A program made the position numbers and the translations under genes. From Synechococcus sp. PCC 7335 (GTDB lineage: Bacteria > Cyanobacteriota > Cyanobacteriia > Phormidesmidales > Phormidesmidaceae), in NCBI RefSeq assembly GCF_000155595.1, contig NZ_DS989904.1, forward strand, positions 3,738,786 to 3,802,785: a stretch of DNA of 64,000 bases, in the 5' to 3' direction. The notes beneath the pieces were generated by a model. It was given only the letters and a program-made list of their open reading frames with translations. It had not been told where the DNA came from and ran no database searches. Shown one piece after another: positions 38,620 to 44,297 of the stretch; positions within the stretch are counted from its first letter, which is position 1, and every line of letters starts with the position of its first letter.

Positions 38620-38754
38620 TCTGGACATCATTAGCGAACGCTTTCCACACACTCTCAAAATTCATGCCCTTCGATACTCTGTTGAAAGTATGTCTCAAAA
38701 TATGTCTCAGAATCGATTTCTCGAAAAGCCTAAGAGATTGTAAGACACGTTCCT

Positions 38755-38840
38755 ACTTAACGTTCCTGGTCAACGGTTGCCAAGATTTTTGCAACGCCAC
38801 AAGAGGCTTGGGTCGATCCGCTGCACCAGGGTTGTTAGCC
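38755..38840 (-). other. attC: Integron attC site 4 (end of cassette 4)
   Basis: 86-bp recombination site. Read in cassette direction (minus), it opens with GGCTAAC (38840-38834) and closes with GTTAAGT (38761-38755), a perfect GTTRRRY core. Between them, CCTGGT (38764-38769) pairs with ACCAGG with an extra G in one arm, the usual extrahelical base of attC. The opening core is the exact complement of the core at the cassette-4 start (GTTAGCC at 39853-39847). Confidence 0.88.
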
Positions 38841-38847
38841 TGCATGG

Positions 38848-39186
38848 CTAGTCTCCACTGATTTCTACTAATGTCTCGCCAGTAGCTAAAATTTTCAAAG
38901 CTTTAGGTAACGTCTCGCTCAGAATTTCGCGTAACTTCGCATTGGAGGTATTGCCACAAGTCAACCAAATAATTTGTGGCGGCGAACCCAACCGCTCGAC
39001 CAGATCCACAAAGTCGCTGTCTTTTGTCATCACAATAGCTTTTTGGTCTTTTGCAGCCTCAAAGATTTCAGGGTCTTCAGCATCTCTTAGCTCAAGATCG
39101 CGCAAGGCTATTGCTTTAAACCCAAACGTGCCGGTGATCCAAGTCGCTATTGCTGGAGACAGGTGTGCATCCACCCAAATAGTCAT
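38848..39186 (-). CDS. DUF5615 PIN-like toxin candidate (cassette 4)
   Basis: This 112-aa protein has acidic residues in PIN-like positions (VDAHLSP at the start, TKDSDFVDLVE in the middle) as in the DUF5615/Mut7-C family, which pairs with DUF433 as a predicted toxin-antitoxin system. It overlaps the DUF433 gene by 4 bp. It is the last gene before attC 4, so it moves with cassette 4. Nuclease activity is predicted only. Confidence 0.85.
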   Translation of the reverse strand: MTIWVDAHLSPAIATWITGTFGFKAIALRDLELRDAEDPEIFEAAKDQKAIVMTKDSDFVDLVERLGSPPQIIWLTCGNTSNAKLREILSETLPKALKILATGETLVEISGD

Positions 39187-39407
39187 GCCACTAAAACTGG
39201 ATGGTTAAGTTTCCGCGAAGCATACGAAAGTGACGCCTTCAAATCATCTGCTTCAAGATCGGGCATTTCCTCTAAAATCTCTCCTGCACTAAGACCTGCT
39301 GCGAACAGATCCAACACATCTGACACTCGGATCCTCATCCCTCGAATACAGGGGCGACCACCGCATTGCTTGGGGTTAATAGTAATTCTTTCAAGTAAGG
39401 ATGGCAT
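39183..39407 (-). CDS. DUF433 antitoxin (cassette 4)
   Basis: This 74-aa protein has the family signature RITINPKQCGGRPCIRGMRIRVSD followed by a small helix-turn-helix (DVLDLFAAGLSAGEILEEMP). DUF433 proteins are the antitoxin/regulator partners of DUF5615 proteins. It overlaps the toxin gene by 4 bp, indicating translational coupling. Confidence 0.88.
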   Translation of the reverse strand: MPSLLERITINPKQCGGRPCIRGMRIRVSDVLDLFAAGLSAGEILEEMPDLEADDLKASLSYASRKLNHPVLVA

Positions 39408-39568
39408 AGAGTGTATCTCAGTAGTTGCTTTTCCTCTAGTATGAATGAAGTTTGCCCACCTGAAACCTAAAGGGAAGGGGGCAAAGCCCCTGCCTATATC
39501 TACATCATCATTTACTACAGCATTCCCTTTCCACGTAGAAATGCCAGAGCAGTCGCTACAACTTCATT

Positions 39569-39760
39569 CTATCCAAATCGACTTCCATGACGAGAATCGG
39601 ATGAATGATAATCGACGATATTGCATTGACTATCGAAGCTCACAATGAAGTGAGGATAGTCATCATTCGATGGATATTTACCAGCTCCACAGATCATGAG
39701 TTGTCCACGCTTTGTGACCTTCGCTTCTAGTTTGTTACCAGCAGATTACCAACCGCTCAT
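39569..39760 (-). pseudogene. Small cassette ORF interrupted by an in-frame stop at codon 5
   Basis: Minus-strand ATG 39760 reads MSGW, then TAA, then continues in the same frame for 58 residues to TAG 39571-39569 (SAGNKLEAKVTKRGQLMIC, GAGKYPSNDDYPHFIVSFDSQ, and so on). The continued frame looks like a folded small protein, so a nonsense change is likely. ATG 39697 could give a 42-residue product instead. It occupies the start of cassette 4. No family was recognised. Confidence 0.5.
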
Positions 39761-39846
39761 ACTCCATCCTCCATAGACAAGCTCAAAGTTTTAGTCTCAA
39801 TAGGAACGAATCAATGCTCCTAATCGAAAGAGTGCCTAGAATTGCA

Positions 39847-39932
39847 GGCTAACGGCTCAAATCAGCGGCGGCAGACAATCCCGAAACGGCATCAGTAGAT
39901 TTCATCCATCCGCTGCATTTGAATTGTTAGCT
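39847..39932 (-). other. attC: Integron attC site 3 (end of cassette 3)
   Basis: 86 bp. Read on minus, it opens with AGCTAAC (39932-39926) and closes with GTTAGCC (39853-39847). The arms TCAAATCAGCGG and CCGCTGCATTTGA pair with a single extrahelical G. AGCTAAC is the exact complement of GTTAGCT, the core at the cassette-3 start (40495-40489). Confidence 0.9.
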
Positions 39933-40361
39933 CTCTGGTAGCCAGTTTTCTGCCAAGACGACTTCTAGAGAGTATGGGCACACTTCTGGAAATGTCGAAA
40001 TTTCCATTCCCGTTTGCTTGGCAGCTTGACGACGGGCACGTTGATAACTCCCTTCAAGTTGCTCTACCGTATAGCTCCTTAGGCTAGGACTATCTTCAAT
40101 CGTCAATTCGATCTGAGTACGCGCATCAGTGATAGAGTCAAGCCAACTATCTGAGCGGCGCTGAGGTTGATATTGCCACTTGAGCAGATGCAGTAAAAGA
40201 CGAGTTAGCTGGCTAGCAATCCCTCGCCGTTCACTTTTTCCCAAATCTTCAACCTCTTCAATCAAATTTGGTACATCGATTTCATGCCAACGACGCTCAC
40301 GTAACAGTTGAGCTGTTTGGTTAATCCACGAACTAAAATCCGTTAAATATGTCTTGCTCAT
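39927..40361 (-). CDS. DUF29 domain protein (cassette 3)
   Basis: ATG 40361 (MSKTYLTDFSSWINQTA) is preferred to the extended frame. The 144-aa protein matches DUF29: RRWHEIDVPNLIEEVEDLGKSERR, LLLHLLKWQYQPQRR, LRSYTVEQLEGSYQRARR. DUF29 genes are abundant in cyanobacteria and have no established function. Its stop codon overlaps the first core of attC 3, as is common in cassettes. Confidence 0.9.
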   Translation of the reverse strand: MSKTYLTDFSSWINQTAQLLRERRWHEIDVPNLIEEVEDLGKSERRGIASQLTRLLLHLLKWQYQPQRRSDSWLDSITDARTQIELTIEDSPSLRSYTVEQLEGSYQRARRQAAKQTGMEISTFPEVCPYSLEVVLAENWLPES

Positions 40362-40488
40362 GTTCAACCTGACCTTTCGCAGTTGCAGCACCTACTTACG
40401 AAGCCTTGCACCTCAATAATAGCGCTCAAACTCGTAGACTTTACTGGGAAGTACAGATCCTCGAACTACTCCCTAAACCGTATATGAA

Positions 40489-40573
40489 AGCTAACGCCCT
40501 GTATCAGCGAAAGCAAAAATCAGTAGCGAGAGTAACGGGGCTTCTTGATTTTCGCTGAATGCTTTTGTTAGAC
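40489..40573 (-). other. attC: Integron attC site 2 (end of cassette 2)
   Basis: 85 bp. Read on minus, it opens with GTCTAAC (40573-40567), a perfect RYYYAAC, and closes with GTTAGCT (40495-40489). ATCAGCGAAA and the mirrored TTTTCGCTGA form the stem. GTCTAAC is complementary at 6 of 7 bases to GTTAGCC, the cassette-2 start core (41229-41223). Confidence 0.88.
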
Positions 40574-41191
40574 GATGGTTTCTACTGATTTCATGGGTAC
40601 GGTTTGCGCTACCAAGTGGGCAAACTCTTTGATTTCAGCGCTTGAGCACAGGCGAATAAACCGGATATGGTCCCATCGTGGATCTAAGTGGTATGCAAGC
40701 ATTCTTTGGCGTTTGGGCTGGTATTGAGTGAGAATCCACCACAACAAGGAATCTTCTTTACGCCAAACCATCAACTGCGGCCAGAACTTTTCATAGTTAG
40801 TTCCCCACAGCAATTCATTTGTTCGCCAGCGATGCCATGAGCGCTTGAGCACACGCCAAACTAACTGATAAAGAGGTAGGTCAAGCCATACGATTGTTTC
40901 AAGTCGAGGCCAAAAGACTTGTTGAGAAAACTTGGTATAAGAACCTGCGACTACCCAACTATCACCCACTGTAGCTTTTTGTATGCGTCGAATAAACTTG
41001 TCGGGATTAGTGTCGTTTAAGCTAACCCAATTCGGCTCCCAATTTAATGCATCTAATTCAACAAAAGACACATTCAATGAAGCAGCCAGCTGACTACCTA
41101 AAGTGCTCTTACCAGAGCAGCTATTGCCAGTAATTAAGATCCGCTGCCCAATAGTGTTGGCTTGAATAGCAGGACTATGCTTCTCTGTCAT
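40568..41191 (-). CDS. P-loop nucleotide kinase-like protein (cassette 2)
   Basis: This 207-aa protein has Walker A GNSCSGKSTLG near residue 17, then FVELDALNWEPNW, and a Trp/Arg-rich C-terminal half (VLKRSWHRWRTNELLW). This is the layout of the adenylate-kinase-like FlaR/topology-modulation group of small P-loop kinases. Substrate is unknown. Its stop lies within the first core of attC 2. Kinase-like genes occur in cassettes of other integrons, but no role is established. Confidence 0.8.
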   Translation of the reverse strand: MTEKHSPAIQANTIGQRILITGNSCSGKSTLGSQLAASLNVSFVELDALNWEPNWVSLNDTNPDKFIRRIQKATVGDSWVVAGSYTKFSQQVFWPRLETIVWLDLPLYQLVWRVLKRSWHRWRTNELLWGTNYEKFWPQLMVWRKEDSLLWWILTQYQPKRQRMLAYHLDPRWDHIRFIRLCSSAEIKEFAHLVAQTVPMKSVETIV

Positions 41192-41222
41192 TTTGTCATT
41201 TCAGAATCGAAGAACTTAACTC

Positions 41223-41309
41223 GGCTAACGTTCCCAATCACCCGCCGCAGATAATCTTGAATTCGAACAGATAACCTATCAACGGTCGGGTGCATTGGGG
41301 TTGTTATGC
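41223..41309 (-). other. attC: Integron attC site 1 (end of cassette 1)
   Basis: 87 bp. Read on minus, it opens with GCATAAC (41309-41303) and closes with GTTAGCC (41229-41223). CCCAATCACCCG pairs with CGGGTGCATTGGG, with one extrahelical G. GCATAAC is the exact complement of GTTATGC at 42416-42410, which places the start of cassette 1 there. Confidence 0.9.
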
Positions 41310-41320
41310 GGCGATCTCTA

Positions 41321-41752
41321 CTAACCTTTTGCTGGATAAAGTAAATGTTCGGGATCTAACCAAACAATATAAAAGACTTCATCAATAAGAAATCCATGAA
41401 CTCTACCGTGCTCGTTTGAAGAGAGGGAAAACTGGTAAGGAGTGTCTACCAACTGTTCCTCGTTCGGTAATCCAAACCCATTTTCGCTTGTATCTTCCCA
41501 TTTGATTGGATGGCATCGAAGAGAACTGCTACGATTCACTAATAGTTCTCGATTAGACAAACCTGATAAAGCCTTTAGGCGATCAATTAGCGTTAGCCAG
41601 TATATAGTTATTCTGTCATTACAATAAAACTTATCGTGTCCGTCTTGATAATACTTAAACGAAAAGCTGATGCCTTGCGGCTTCAGCTTTGTTGATTCAA
41701 TCCCAGATGTACTATTCTTCGGGATTTTAGTCTTCTTAATCTTCTTCGACAC
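41321..41752 (-). CDS. Candidate toxin paired with a Panacea antitoxin (cassette 1)
   Basis: This 143-aa protein starts at GTG 41752 and overlaps the upstream Panacea gene by 17 bp. The N-terminus is Lys/Thr-rich. The C-terminal half (FGLPNEEQLVDTPYQF, SSNEHGRVHGFLIDEVFYIVWLDP) ends with a strand-turn pattern reminiscent of RelE-like folds. No named family is recognised. Position downstream of a Panacea antitoxin in one cassette suggests a toxin. Confidence 0.6.
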   Translation of the reverse strand: MSKKIKKTKIPKNSTSGIESTKLKPQGISFSFKYYQDGHDKFYCNDRITIYWLTLIDRLKALSGLSNRELLVNRSSSLRCHPIKWEDTSENGFGLPNEEQLVDTPYQFSLSSNEHGRVHGFLIDEVFYIVWLDPEHLLYPAKG

Positions 41753-42182
41753 GTGCCCCGTAGTACTCCTTCATCCACTCTTTCTTGATGACTTCATTGG
41801 AAGACGCATCTGAGGGTAAATCTCCTCTAGCCCAGTCCCAGGGAGCTTCAGCATGAGTCATTTGCTCTAGCTCATAGGCATCACAAGCAAAGTACTCTTC
41901 CGCAACTTCGTCAAGGAATTGAAAAACATCTTCAGGAAGCTTAGGATCAGCGTCTTCCAGAATTGGTTGCCATCCAAAGGTCTTATACTTTTGATATAAA
42001 GATGGGATGACCGGTCCATGCACCCAAGCCTGAAAATCTTCTGCAAAGAGAGGATCGTCATAGAGTGCGATATGCCAAGCCTGAGCATAGTAAACAAGCT
42101 TTTGAAGCTTTAAGTTACTAATGAAGGAGCCAGTTTCGTTCGCTAGCCAAATAAAATAGTCTGCTATGTCAAAGCAGGACAT
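41736..42182 (-). CDS. Panacea-domain (DUF4065) antitoxin (cassette 1)
   Basis: ATG 42182 (MSCFDIADYFIW) is well placed after AAGGGGG; a GTG lies at 42194. The 148-aa protein matches Panacea/SocA: DIADYFIWLANETG, LKLQKLVYYAQAWHIALY, FQAWVHGPVIPSLY. Panacea proteins neutralise many unrelated toxins through protein binding (SocA also acts as a protease adaptor). It is first in cassette 1, nearest the integrase. Confidence 0.88.
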   Translation of the reverse strand: MSCFDIADYFIWLANETGSFISNLKLQKLVYYAQAWHIALYDDPLFAEDFQAWVHGPVIPSLYQKYKTFGWQPILEDADPKLPEDVFQFLDEVAEEYFACDAYELEQMTHAEAPWDWARGDLPSDASSNEVIKKEWMKEYYGARVEED

Positions 42183-42476
42183 CACTAAGCTCACCCCCTT
42201 AATTACAAAGCCCTGGAAAGACTCATAGGCTTACATACCCAGTTTATACAGTTCTTGCAGCAGAAGCTATGAGGAATTCCCCAGCCTCATAGTTTACTTG
42301 TACTATTATAAACTTTTGGCTAAGCAACTGCATAAAAAATTACCAAATTCCAGCAAGTTCACCTCGCCAACAAATTCCAACATGTGTCCCCGACAGGTAG
42401 CCTCAAGCCGCATAACTATATATTCAGTGTCAGATTTGCTGTATAACCTCCTTATCTAGGATCTTAAATGTCAAGG

Positions 42477-42516
42477 TTGACAGATAACTACCCTGTCCAC
42501 AGAAGTTATCTGTCAA
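42477..42516. repeat. Perfect 13-bp inverted repeat in the attI region
   Basis: TTGACAGATAACT at 42477-42489 and its exact complement at 42504-42516 flank a 14-base loop. The arms contain the core-like GTTATCT. It may be an integrase-binding or regulatory palindrome; no U-tract, so not an obvious terminator. Confidence 0.8.
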
Positions 42517-42535
42517 TTCTGCTGGATAAGTCCGT

Positions 42536-42581
42536 AGAAGTAGGGTGTTATTTATCACAGAAGTAGGGTGTTATTTATCAC
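42536..42581. repeat. Perfect 23-bp tandem duplication upstream of intI
   Basis: The 23-mer at 42536-42558 (AGAAGTAGGG...TTATCAC) is repeated without change at 42559-42581. Each unit holds GTTATTT, similar to the integron core GTTRRRY. Candidate direct repeats for integrase binding, as in attI1. Confidence 0.85.
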
Positions 42582-42671
42582 ATCTGAAGGTTTAAGTAGA
42601 GTATGCGGTGCTTATACAGCAAGTTTGCTGTGCAAGTGCCCAGATATTTGCTTATTACCACACTAAAAAGT

Positions 42672-42740
42672 ATGCCATGCCAGCAACCACCGCGCCTACT
42701 CGACTAGGTTAGGGAGGCAATCAGGCTGAAGCACTTTAGC
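42672..42740 (+). other. Upstream part of the intI frame with an amber codon
   Basis: From ATG 42672 the integrase frame reads MPCQQPPRLLD, then TAG (42705-42707), then [16 protein letters not shown] directly into the integrase. Homologous integrases have LLDQVR or VLDQLR at this place, so TAG stands where CAG (Gln) is expected. With a readthrough residue the protein would be 325 aa, the normal IntI length. Confidence 0.8.
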
Positions 42741-43649
42741 TTGTCAACGGAAAAGTCGTACGTCTACTACATCCGCGACTACATTCTTTTTCATAACAAG
42801 CAGCATCCAAAGAAGATGGGAGCCTCTGAGATCAGAGCATATCTATCGCATTTAGCGACCGTCCGCCATGTTGCAGCCTCGACCCAAACCGTCGCTCTCA
42901 GCGCTTTACTGTTTCTCTATCGCCAGGTTTTAGGGATAGAGCTGCCATACATAGACAACATCGAACGAGCGAAGCGGCCTCAGCGTCTGCCAGTTGTCTT
43001 TACTCGCTCTGAGGTGATGCGAATCCTAGCCAATCTAGATGGAATCAATCACCTGGTTGTTAGTCTTCTATACGGTACGGGCATGCGACTGATGGAGGGC
43101 TTACGATTGCGGGTAAAGGACATTGACTTTGAGTACCGCCACATTACGGTGCGAGATGGCAAGGGCAAAAAAGATCGCCATACGCTGCTGCCAGAATCTG
43201 TAATACAGCCACTTCAGCACCAGCTCAAGAAAGCCAAGCATCTGCATGAACAAGATTTGGCAGTGGGATACGGCACTGTAGAGCTGCCCTATGCGTTGGC
43301 ACGAAAATATCCTAGTGCGCACAAGGAGTGGAAATGGCAATTTGTGTTTCCTTCCGGGAAGCGGTCACTCGATCCAAGATCCAAAGTCGTTCGCAGGCAC
43401 CATTTGTATGAGCAATCTGTCCAACGCGCTGTAAAGAAAGCAATACAGAAAGCTGAAATCACTAAAAACGGAGGCTGTCATACATTGCGGCACAGCTTTG
43501 CAACTCACTTGCTCGAAGATGGCTACGATATCCGTACGGTACAAGAACTACTTGGACACAAGGATGTGAAAACAACGATGATTTACACTCATGTCTTGAA
43601 CAAAGGTGGACATGGTGTACAGAGTCCCCTGGACAAAGAGTTTGCATAA
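42741..43649 (+). CDS. intI: Integron integrase IntI (tyrosine recombinase), N-terminus interrupted
   Basis: The catalytic tyrosine-recombinase set is complete: Arg in [41 protein letters not shown] with the nucleophile Tyr. The IntI-specific insert ([24 protein letters not shown], then [15 protein letters not shown]) separates it from XerC/XerD and marks it as an integron integrase. The coordinates use TTG 42741 (302 aa); the full 325-aa frame from ATG 42672 has an amber codon. It is divergent from the cassettes, the standard integron orientation. Confidence 0.9.
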
Positions 43650-44297
43650 ACACTATAGCTATTCAAATCACAATCGCGGCTGACTGTTCTTCAAAGTCAA
43701 ACCATAGAGCATGCTCAGCAACAACTGCTCATTATCTCATTATCAAGATAAGTTCGTAACTGCGCAGTGTACTACTGTCTCATAACGACCTTTTGCAAGA
43801 CAAGTGATGAAAGTTATAACGATTCATAGGTAAGGTGTAACCAGAATATCTTTGTAAAGATGGGGAGAACTCACCATAACCGCAGGTCTTACTTTGGAAT
43901 TCAACAGATCCGAAAATGGCTAGCGAACCAGCACAATATCATGCTTAGAGTAGCTGGGCATACAGATATCCTCAGTGTTGTTTCACACAACATCTAACAA
44001 CATTTGACCTTCATACAGCTAAGACTCAGTTTCATCATCAGGTAGCAGCGTGACTAGTACTCTCGTTCCTTCGAGAACTTCATTGACTCCAAAAGTTCAA
44101 ATCTGCCTTGGCGGATTTTAGCCCAAAGAGTCTGCAACCTGTTCTCCACCGATAGAGTCAGACCTTGACTGTATACATCCATAATTCTGACGACGCTCTA
44201 TAGAGAGAACTTCAAAGCATTATCTCCACCGACAGCTTGAAGGTTGGTTACATAATAGTGTTTAATACTTGTTTACTGAAAAGCAAATAGAGCCTTC
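43650..44297. other. 648-bp region downstream of intI, mostly non-coding
   Basis: No intact gene is seen. It contains an antitoxin remnant (44019-44149, minus) and a short palindrome ATCTTTGTAAAGAT (43848-43861). No attC-like site was found on this side, so the array does not extend past intI. Confidence 0.55.
44019..44149 (-). pseudogene. Remnant of a small cyanobacterial antitoxin, frameshifted
   Basis: From GTG 44149 the minus strand reads VENRLQTLWAKIRQGRFELLES, then a shift of frame, then EVLEGTRVLVTLLPDDETES and a stop (44021-44019). The two pieces join as one small antitoxin of the type AKIRQGKIELLE...PEGTRVLVTLLPDDE. No toxin gene remains beside it. Confidence 0.45.

Follow-up and report, generated by a model that had tools for sequence, protein, structure and literature searches.

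A four-cassette chromosomal integron in the cyanobacterium Synechococcus sp. PCC 7335, probably switched off, with one cassette that moved between species

Introduction

The 64,000-nucleotide stretch of the Synechococcus sp. PCC 7335 genome analyzed here (contig NZ_DS989904.1, positions 3,738,786 to 3,802,785; termed the window) carries a recombinase gene beside four repeats of 85–87 bp and several small genes of opposite orientation, between positions 38,755 and 43,649. A preliminary description, made from the sequence alone, had read this locus as a complete chromosomal integron, which raises the question of whether it is an integron at all, whether it is still at work, and whether its cassettes have ever moved. 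The locus is very probably a four-cassette chromosomal integron, now probably switched off, with an amber mutation in its integrase gene, intI, and with one cassette, cassette 1, that moved between species fairly recently. The identification as an integron is based on the profile, Protein Data Bank (PDB), and tree placement of the integrase, on a model of the cassette recombination sites (attC) built without this genome, on the integrase-proximal site (attI), and on cassette junctions found again in other genomes. The window lies on contig C1 (3.74–3.80 Mb) of a 5.97-Mb genome in 11 contigs, estimated to be 95% complete, and the integron is thus chromosomal. Other genomes, contigs, and loci are designated by G, C, and L numbers, the genome of the window being G000.

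The integrase

42672–43649, plus strand: intI, the integron integrase gene, with an in-frame amber codon at 42705–42707 (the 12th codon counted from 42672, the orthologous ATG)
42741–43649, plus strand: the remaining IntI open frame, 302 amino acids from a TTG, without positions 1–16 of both TIGR02249 and the N-terminal SAM-like domain

The open reading frame (ORF) at 42741–43649 scores 460.5 bits against TIGR02249 (cut-off 265) and falls far under the cut-offs for XerC (144.5 bits; cut-off 335.15) and XerD (138.8 bits; cut-off 329.6). The top PDB chain is IntI4 (2a3v, 300.8 bits), presumably the integrase IntI4/VchIntIA of Vibrio cholerae, followed by an XerC-like protein (111.6 bits) and XerA (109.8 bits). 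The alignment with IntI4 spans 312 residues and runs to its end, with no large gap across the region that is taken here to hold the integron-specific insert, in agreement with the earlier assignment of the recombinase as an IntI-type enzyme with that insert. In a tree of 102 rows, the window IntI falls within a starred set of 12 (seven Cyanobacteriota and five unlabelled), far from an outgroup composed of the genome's own four Xer-like proteins; Escherichia coli XerC and XerD are absent from the rows, and the separation observed is from those four proteins. Six loci (L017, L019, L020, L122, L123, and L124) were too short and were left out of the tree, and L022, which has an internal stop of its own, was kept. 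The nearest named relatives are the IntI proteins of filamentous cyanobacterium LEGE 07170, Adonisia turfae, and Nodosilinea. Two genomes assigned to the same family have integrases identical to those of Halomicronema sp. CCY15110 and of a Leptolyngbyaceae MAG.

Homology to close relatives extends upstream of the listed ORF, and the ATG at 42672 corresponds to their start. At the position of the amber codon, 18 of the 20 relatives viewed (of 80 fetched) have glutamine and two have arginine. Reading through this codon extends the TIGR02249 match from 17–314 to 1–314 and the SAM-like domain from 17–83 to 1–83. The genome, in an assembly estimated as 95% complete, contains one IntI match (E 1e-5 or better), and its four other XerD matches are distant Xer-like proteins under the cut-off. 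Because the amber codon truncates a conserved N-terminal part and no second IntI match is found at this threshold, the integrase is probably inactive, and the proposed completeness of the element finds no support.

An active IntI is unlikely, though less so than the other alternatives. It would be made by read-through of the amber codon or from a start past it, either the TTG at 42741 or an unusual one closer by that follows GGGAGG at 42712. In its favor, the frame of 302 codons shows no other damage and can be aligned with IntI4 as far as its end, and there is no clear sign of relaxation, as the ratio of non-synonymous to synonymous changes is 0.41–0.74 for changes specific to the window frame and 0.39–0.67 for relatives in the same comparisons. 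However, a start at 42741 leaves out positions 1–16 of both TIGR02249 and the SAM-like domain, and all 20 relatives viewed retain the N-terminal stretch. Changes by codon position gave no usable date for the amber codon, as third positions differ by 56–62% from the seven relatives, near saturation.

An error of sequencing or assembly at the amber codon, which would make the integron complete, appears quite improbable. It concerns a single codon in one assembly, but intI often carries internal stops: one is present in 5 of 21 integrase matches of at least 290 amino acids (the window's own amber codon lies upstream of the query used) and in the intI of the close relative L022 as well; that of the close relative L021 is open. 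Passages of two published papers describe intI as broken in about one third of cases (PMC2426708) and 43–46% of intI homologues as predicted to be inactive (PMC3108266).

Many genomes of relatives contain short N- or C-terminal IntI pieces besides or instead of full genes. Some of these lie near contig ends, and others look like the debris of lost integrons.

The attC sites

41223–41309 (87 bp), minus strand: attC of cassette 1 (78.0 bits, E 6.3e-17)
40489–40573 (85 bp), minus strand: attC of cassette 2, the weakest (29.0 bits, E 6.9e-5)
39847–39932 (86 bp), minus strand: attC of cassette 3 (65.9 bits, E 5.9e-14)
38755–38840 (86 bp), minus strand: attC of cassette 4, at the array end (63.4 bits, E 2.4e-13)

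The scores are those of a covariance model, R1, built from 11 sites located upstream of other cyanobacterial integrases. These 11 sites were picked for complementarity, which biases their covariation; the window played no part in building the model, and no site came from its genome. Six non-cyanobacterial candidates (L047, L070, L080, two in L086, and L096) and the sites that passed in plus-strand reading only (among them L004, L038, L073, L092, and L098) were left out. R1 accepts all four window sites, and the next match in the window scores 12.1 bits (E = 1). Rfam gives no match in the window at gathering scores, and the attC test therefore rests on R1. The same four sites, of the lengths first reported, are recovered by a scan for paired inner boxes between GTT/AAC cores, in which exactly four window sites have at least 11 of 12 L''/L' matches; as each site is counted once per strand, this corresponds to 8 hits versus 0, 2, 0, and 0 in four block shuffles. 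A stricter scan for RYYYAAC/GTTRRRY cores that pair within a site found nothing in the window, since the outer cores of a single arrayed site stem from two cassettes; the criteria were relaxed thereafter.

Compared by eye, the start core of a cassette and the core of its own attC are exactly complementary in three cases (GTTATGC/GCATAAC, GTTAGCT/AGCTAAC, and GTTAGCC/GGCTAAC) and match at six of seven positions in the fourth (GTTAGCC and GTCTAAC), as first noted. The first pair departs from the usual purine/pyrimidine pattern yet matches, which makes it stronger evidence than a consensus match. The cassette spans derived earlier agree with cuts at G^TT.

An extrahelical G occupies the same position in attC 1, 3, and 4, whereas in attC 2 three inner pairs are broken and the extrahelical base lies elsewhere. 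The description of the set as homogeneous, as in sedentary integrons, thus holds for attC 1, 3, and 4 and fails for attC 2. With regard to the sedentary type, the element has a chromosomal place, is missing from the same locus of a sister species, G002, and contains one attC unlike the other three. As single strands, attC 1 (z -4.1) and attC 3 (z -3.4) fold clearly better than shuffled sequences, whereas for attC 2 (z -1.1) and attC 4 (z -1.6) the advantage is weak. The bottom strand is presumed to be the recombining one on the basis of knowledge from other integrons, not of this folding test.

The attI site and the spacer

42414–42440, minus strand: attI core CTGACACTGAATATATAG^TT, with the crossover between 42416 (G) and 42415 (T)
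42477–42516, no strand assigned: 13-bp inverted repeat without mismatch, TTGACAGATAACT / AGTTATCTGTCAA, within the intI–attI spacer
42536–42581, no strand assigned: two tandem 23-bp copies with the GGGTGTTAT motif, which recurs in the intI–attI spacers of relatives

The attI site had not been named in the preliminary description, although the junction at 42416/42415 is the cassette start given there. An alignment of the regions upstream of intI from the window and ten relatives contains a block, CTGAC..T.AATA.ATAGTT, at whose end conservation stops abruptly. The block is present in six of the ten relatives; L023 has no sequence there, L024 is without the motif, and L027 and L030 have diverged. 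Identity to the window is 21–24 of 27 positions up to and including TT in the six relatives and drops to 8–11 of 27 beyond the junction in five of them (the contig of the sixth ends there); because carrying the motif was the criterion by which these six were selected, the contrast across the junction counts and not the height of the first number. A conserved block adjoining intI thus ends at the junction with the first cassette.

The sequence GGGTRTTAT or its complement occurs 22 times in nine spacer regions, compared with 0.04 expected by shuffling, although the nine regions are homologous and the occurrences are not independent events. They are found in the window (42413–42671) and in the spacers of L021–L026, L028, and L043, often at equal distances. 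In the window, the motif sits in the 23-bp tandem duplication, adjoining the 13-bp inverted repeat. The GGGTRTTAT repeats are possibly binding sites of IntI or of a regulator.

Movement of the cassettes

41229–42415, minus strand: cassette 1 (1187 bp), core pair exact, with copies in G002 (94.75%) and G088 (80%)
40495–41228, minus strand: cassette 2 (734 bp), core pair matching at six of seven positions
39853–40494, minus strand: cassette 3 (642 bp), core pair exact
38761–39852, minus strand: cassette 4 (1092 bp), core pair exact, with the 5' boundary at G^TT in common with G013

The DNA of the array was searched against 115 genomes, including its own, and 78 gave some match, a lower bound as two candidates were scored per genome. 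In contig 274 of G002, which belongs to the same genus (82% amino acid identity in SbcC and 90% in UgpC), cassette 1 alone is matched, besides many single-gene and attC-sized matches elsewhere. With the whole window as the query, the homology extends from 41221 to 42420 at 94.75% identity and stops 2 bases past the end of the attC and 5 bases past the start of cassette 1. In the window, cassette 1 is joined to attI; in G002, it is joined to the attC of another cassette, within an array of multiple attC sites on a contig with no IntI match. This difference in neighbors is the pattern left by integrase action.

The two copies are far more similar than their host genomes. In the two genes of cassette 1, 4 of 54 and 1 of 53 four-fold degenerate sites are changed (5 of 107), versus 156 of 332 in SbcC, 96 of 208 in UgpC, and 200 of 373 in GyrA (452 of 913) for the same genome pair. 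The copies of cassette 1 therefore parted long after the species split, and the cassette moved after that split in one lineage or another, in all likelihood through an integrase. Its spread by ordinary homologous recombination or by transfer of a larger piece is highly improbable. Neither carrier assembly contains an intact IntI (G000 has the amber codon, and G002, a 280-contig draft, has two fragments), as such a transfer would allow; the homology, on the other hand, comprises one cassette, ends within a few bases of its cores, and adjoins attI in the window but the attC of another cassette in G002.

Other genomes contain further boundaries of this type. The 5' end of cassette 4 is shared with G013 from G^TT onward, and G020 and G060 match its attC end as far as the core. 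Cassettes 1 (G002) and 4 (G013, G020, and G060) thus have the boundaries at cores that are expected of mobile units; genes similar to those of cassettes 2 and 3 occur in other genomes, and core-bounded homology was seen for cassettes 1 and 4. A third copy of cassette 1, in G088 from another family, is 80% identical and lies alone between chromosomal genes, without an attC match. It was considered as a clean insertion and set aside, as its place is unoccupied in the congeners G024 and G115 but with about 35–40 extra bases on each side. As for the locus being an Xer-type recombinase beside chance repeats, nothing was found in favor, and the profile scores, tree, attC model, and junctions all run contrary, which leaves it next to no probability.

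The same locus in a sister species

38748–43772, no strand assigned: segment missing at the corresponding locus of G002, whose sequence there contains an alpha/beta-hydrolase ORF; the left edge is set by a short match

The comparison with a sister strain, which had been proposed as a check, reveals a locus without an integron. In G002, the same neighboring genes enclose approximately 1.2 kb, in which the hydrolase ORF is in place and no attC match is found at E 0.1. On the left, a match of 64 bp (72% identity, E 0.003) carries the homology to 38747, eight bases short of the outermost attC; on the right, it resumes at 43773. Within the genus, the integron is therefore not fixed at this locus. 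The data do not separate a gain in the window lineage from a loss in G002.

The shared stretch beside the integron, 43773–44200, reads on the minus strand as MPSYSKHDIVLVR, a stop, and then PFSDLSNSKVRPAV. It corresponds to the front of the hydrolase ORF in sister L121, and resembles a remnant of a PemK/MazF-type toxin gene.

Cassette contents

41736–42194, minus strand: cassette 1, antitoxin-like ORF with a SocA/Panacea domain, 152 amino acids (PF13274, 9.8e-22; NF047745, 7.9e-20, under cut-off)
41321–41752, minus strand: cassette 1, partner ORF of 143 amino acids that overlaps the SocA ORF, with a weak match to the MAG6450 family (NF046006, 1.6e-5, under cut-off)
40568–41191, minus strand: cassette 2, P-loop kinase-like ORF (AAA_18 or "DNA topology modulation" type), 207 amino acids (PF13238, 4.3e-7; NF005994, 2.7e-17, under cut-off)
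39927–40391, minus strand: cassette 3, DUF29 ORF, 154 amino acids (PF01724, 8.2e-52)
39183–39407, minus strand: cassette 4, DUF433 ORF, 74 amino acids, probable antitoxin (PF04255, 7.6e-25)
38848–39186, minus strand: cassette 4, DUF5615 PIN-like ORF, 112 amino acids, probable toxin (PF18480, 4.9e-24)

Judging from their domains and overlapping genes, cassettes 1 and 4 look like two-gene toxin–antitoxin units. The 143-residue ORF of cassette 1, which has no Pfam match, is the probable toxin partner of the SocA-type ORF. Profiles of defense systems gave only two weak matches, both on the N-terminal part of the kinase-like ORF of cassette 2. In the front part of cassette 4 (39410–39846), the cassette strand is free of long ORFs, and a decayed gene may lie there; homology of this cassette to the related copy in G013 skips 39459–39572 of the window.

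Order of events

By analogy with other integrons, IntI would bind each attC as a folded bottom strand, and circular cassettes would be inserted by recombination of their attC with the attI adjoining intI. The newest cassette would then adjoin attI, and cassette 1 would by its position be the latest arrival. The parts of the element, their boundaries, and the past movement follow from comparison between genomes; for the sequence of events, the likely order is that cassette 1 was captured at attI while an integrase was at work and that the amber codon arose later, or in the meantime. Alternatively, the integrase for this capture may have been supplied from elsewhere. Barring an integrase from outside or suppression of the amber codon, the array is probably frozen at present.

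Several observations weigh against parts of this account. The intI frame is intact apart from the amber codon, and its inactivation must be either very recent or not real; changes specific to the window are slightly richer in non-synonymous ones in five of six comparisons, with overlapping ranges. The 95% identity of the copies of cassette 1 dates their common source, not the direction of transfer or the insertion into the window attI, and the background divergence comes from three host genes, all from one region. Among the recombination sites, attC 2 scores far under the others and was missed in the whole-genome attC searches, and both strands fold about equally well, such that the bottom strand does not stand out by its folding energy.

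attC sites elsewhere in the genomes

The claim that integrons are best known from Proteobacteria overstated their rarity elsewhere, as integrase matches, some of them short or Xer-like, occur in 32 of 38 genomes searched and attC matches in 20 of 22 genomes (the genome of the window counts in both), in addition to published cyanobacterial integrons. In three few-contig genomes (G008, G013, and G030), 47 of 97 attC matches are alone at a spacing of 4 kb (17 of 32, 15 of 35, and 15 of 30 in the individual genomes), counts in which singles are too numerous because only 150 of approximately 1250–2020 candidates per genome were scored, by which the window attC 2 was missed. The genome of the window has a lone strong attC (L136 7332–7417, that is, G000:C2:573331–573416; 65.6 bits) and a weak further one (C1:4115789–4115876; 30.8 bits). 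The attG concept describes cassettes that are inserted outside integrons. The lone site on C2 follows what is presumably a glyoxalase-type ORF, with ORFs taken to be transposase-like on both sides; it was tried as an off-target insertion and rejected, as the matches listed for six congeners were scattered and partial, with no clean empty site. A tentative possibility is that in these cyanobacteria IntI has been repeatedly gained and inactivated, in a hit-and-run manner, with cassettes spreading singly over the chromosome and between species.

Comparison with known systems

Both integrons in Cyanobacteria and broken intI genes have already been published, and the element is an integron of an ordinary kind, caught after a probable switch-off. 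What is new is that cassette 1 also occurs in a different array of a sister species, with comparative evidence that is unusually clean. The locus thus provides an example of cassette exchange between cyanobacterial species, with the crossover resolved to a few bases, next to an integrase that was probably lost only a short time ago. The frequent inactivation of environmental integrases becomes a question that can be tested in one pair of relatives, and work on a non-proteobacterial integron can aim at two concrete targets, the block of conservation at attI and the GGGTRTTAT motif that recurs in the spacers. Passages of PMC2426708, PMC8352920, PMC8618304, and PMC9668308 mention integrons in Cyanobacteria, and PMC8352920 includes an attC covariance model for this phylum. 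Phrases such as "cyanobacterial integron" returned no paper, and no title among the matches listed is devoted to cyanobacterial integrons, in a literature search that mostly does not cover subscription journals.

Compared with the Vibrio cholerae integron of IntI4/VchIntIA (2a3v), with whose integrase IntI aligns over 312 residues, the window element has a small array and a truncated open frame. Similar to chromosomal integrons of Cyanobacteria and other phyla, as far as passages of PMC2426708, PMC8352920, PMC8618304, and PMC9668308 describe them, it has an intI divergent from the cassettes, an attI, attC sites, and cassettes of toxin–antitoxin type; unlike them, it has four cassettes only, is missing from the same place in the sister species, and carries an amber codon in intI. 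The combination of an internal stop with cassettes still in place resembles intI pseudogenes such as the intI2 of class 2 integrons, as presented in parts of PMC2426708, although the window integron is chromosomal and environmental. The array may now behave as a cluster of attC sites without an integrase, or CALIN, of the kind outlined in portions of PMC8618304 and PMC9668308, and the G002 copy of cassette 1, which lies among other attC sites in a contig where no IntI match is found, is similar to one. In contrast to CALINs, the window element keeps a nearly intact intI and a conserved attI.

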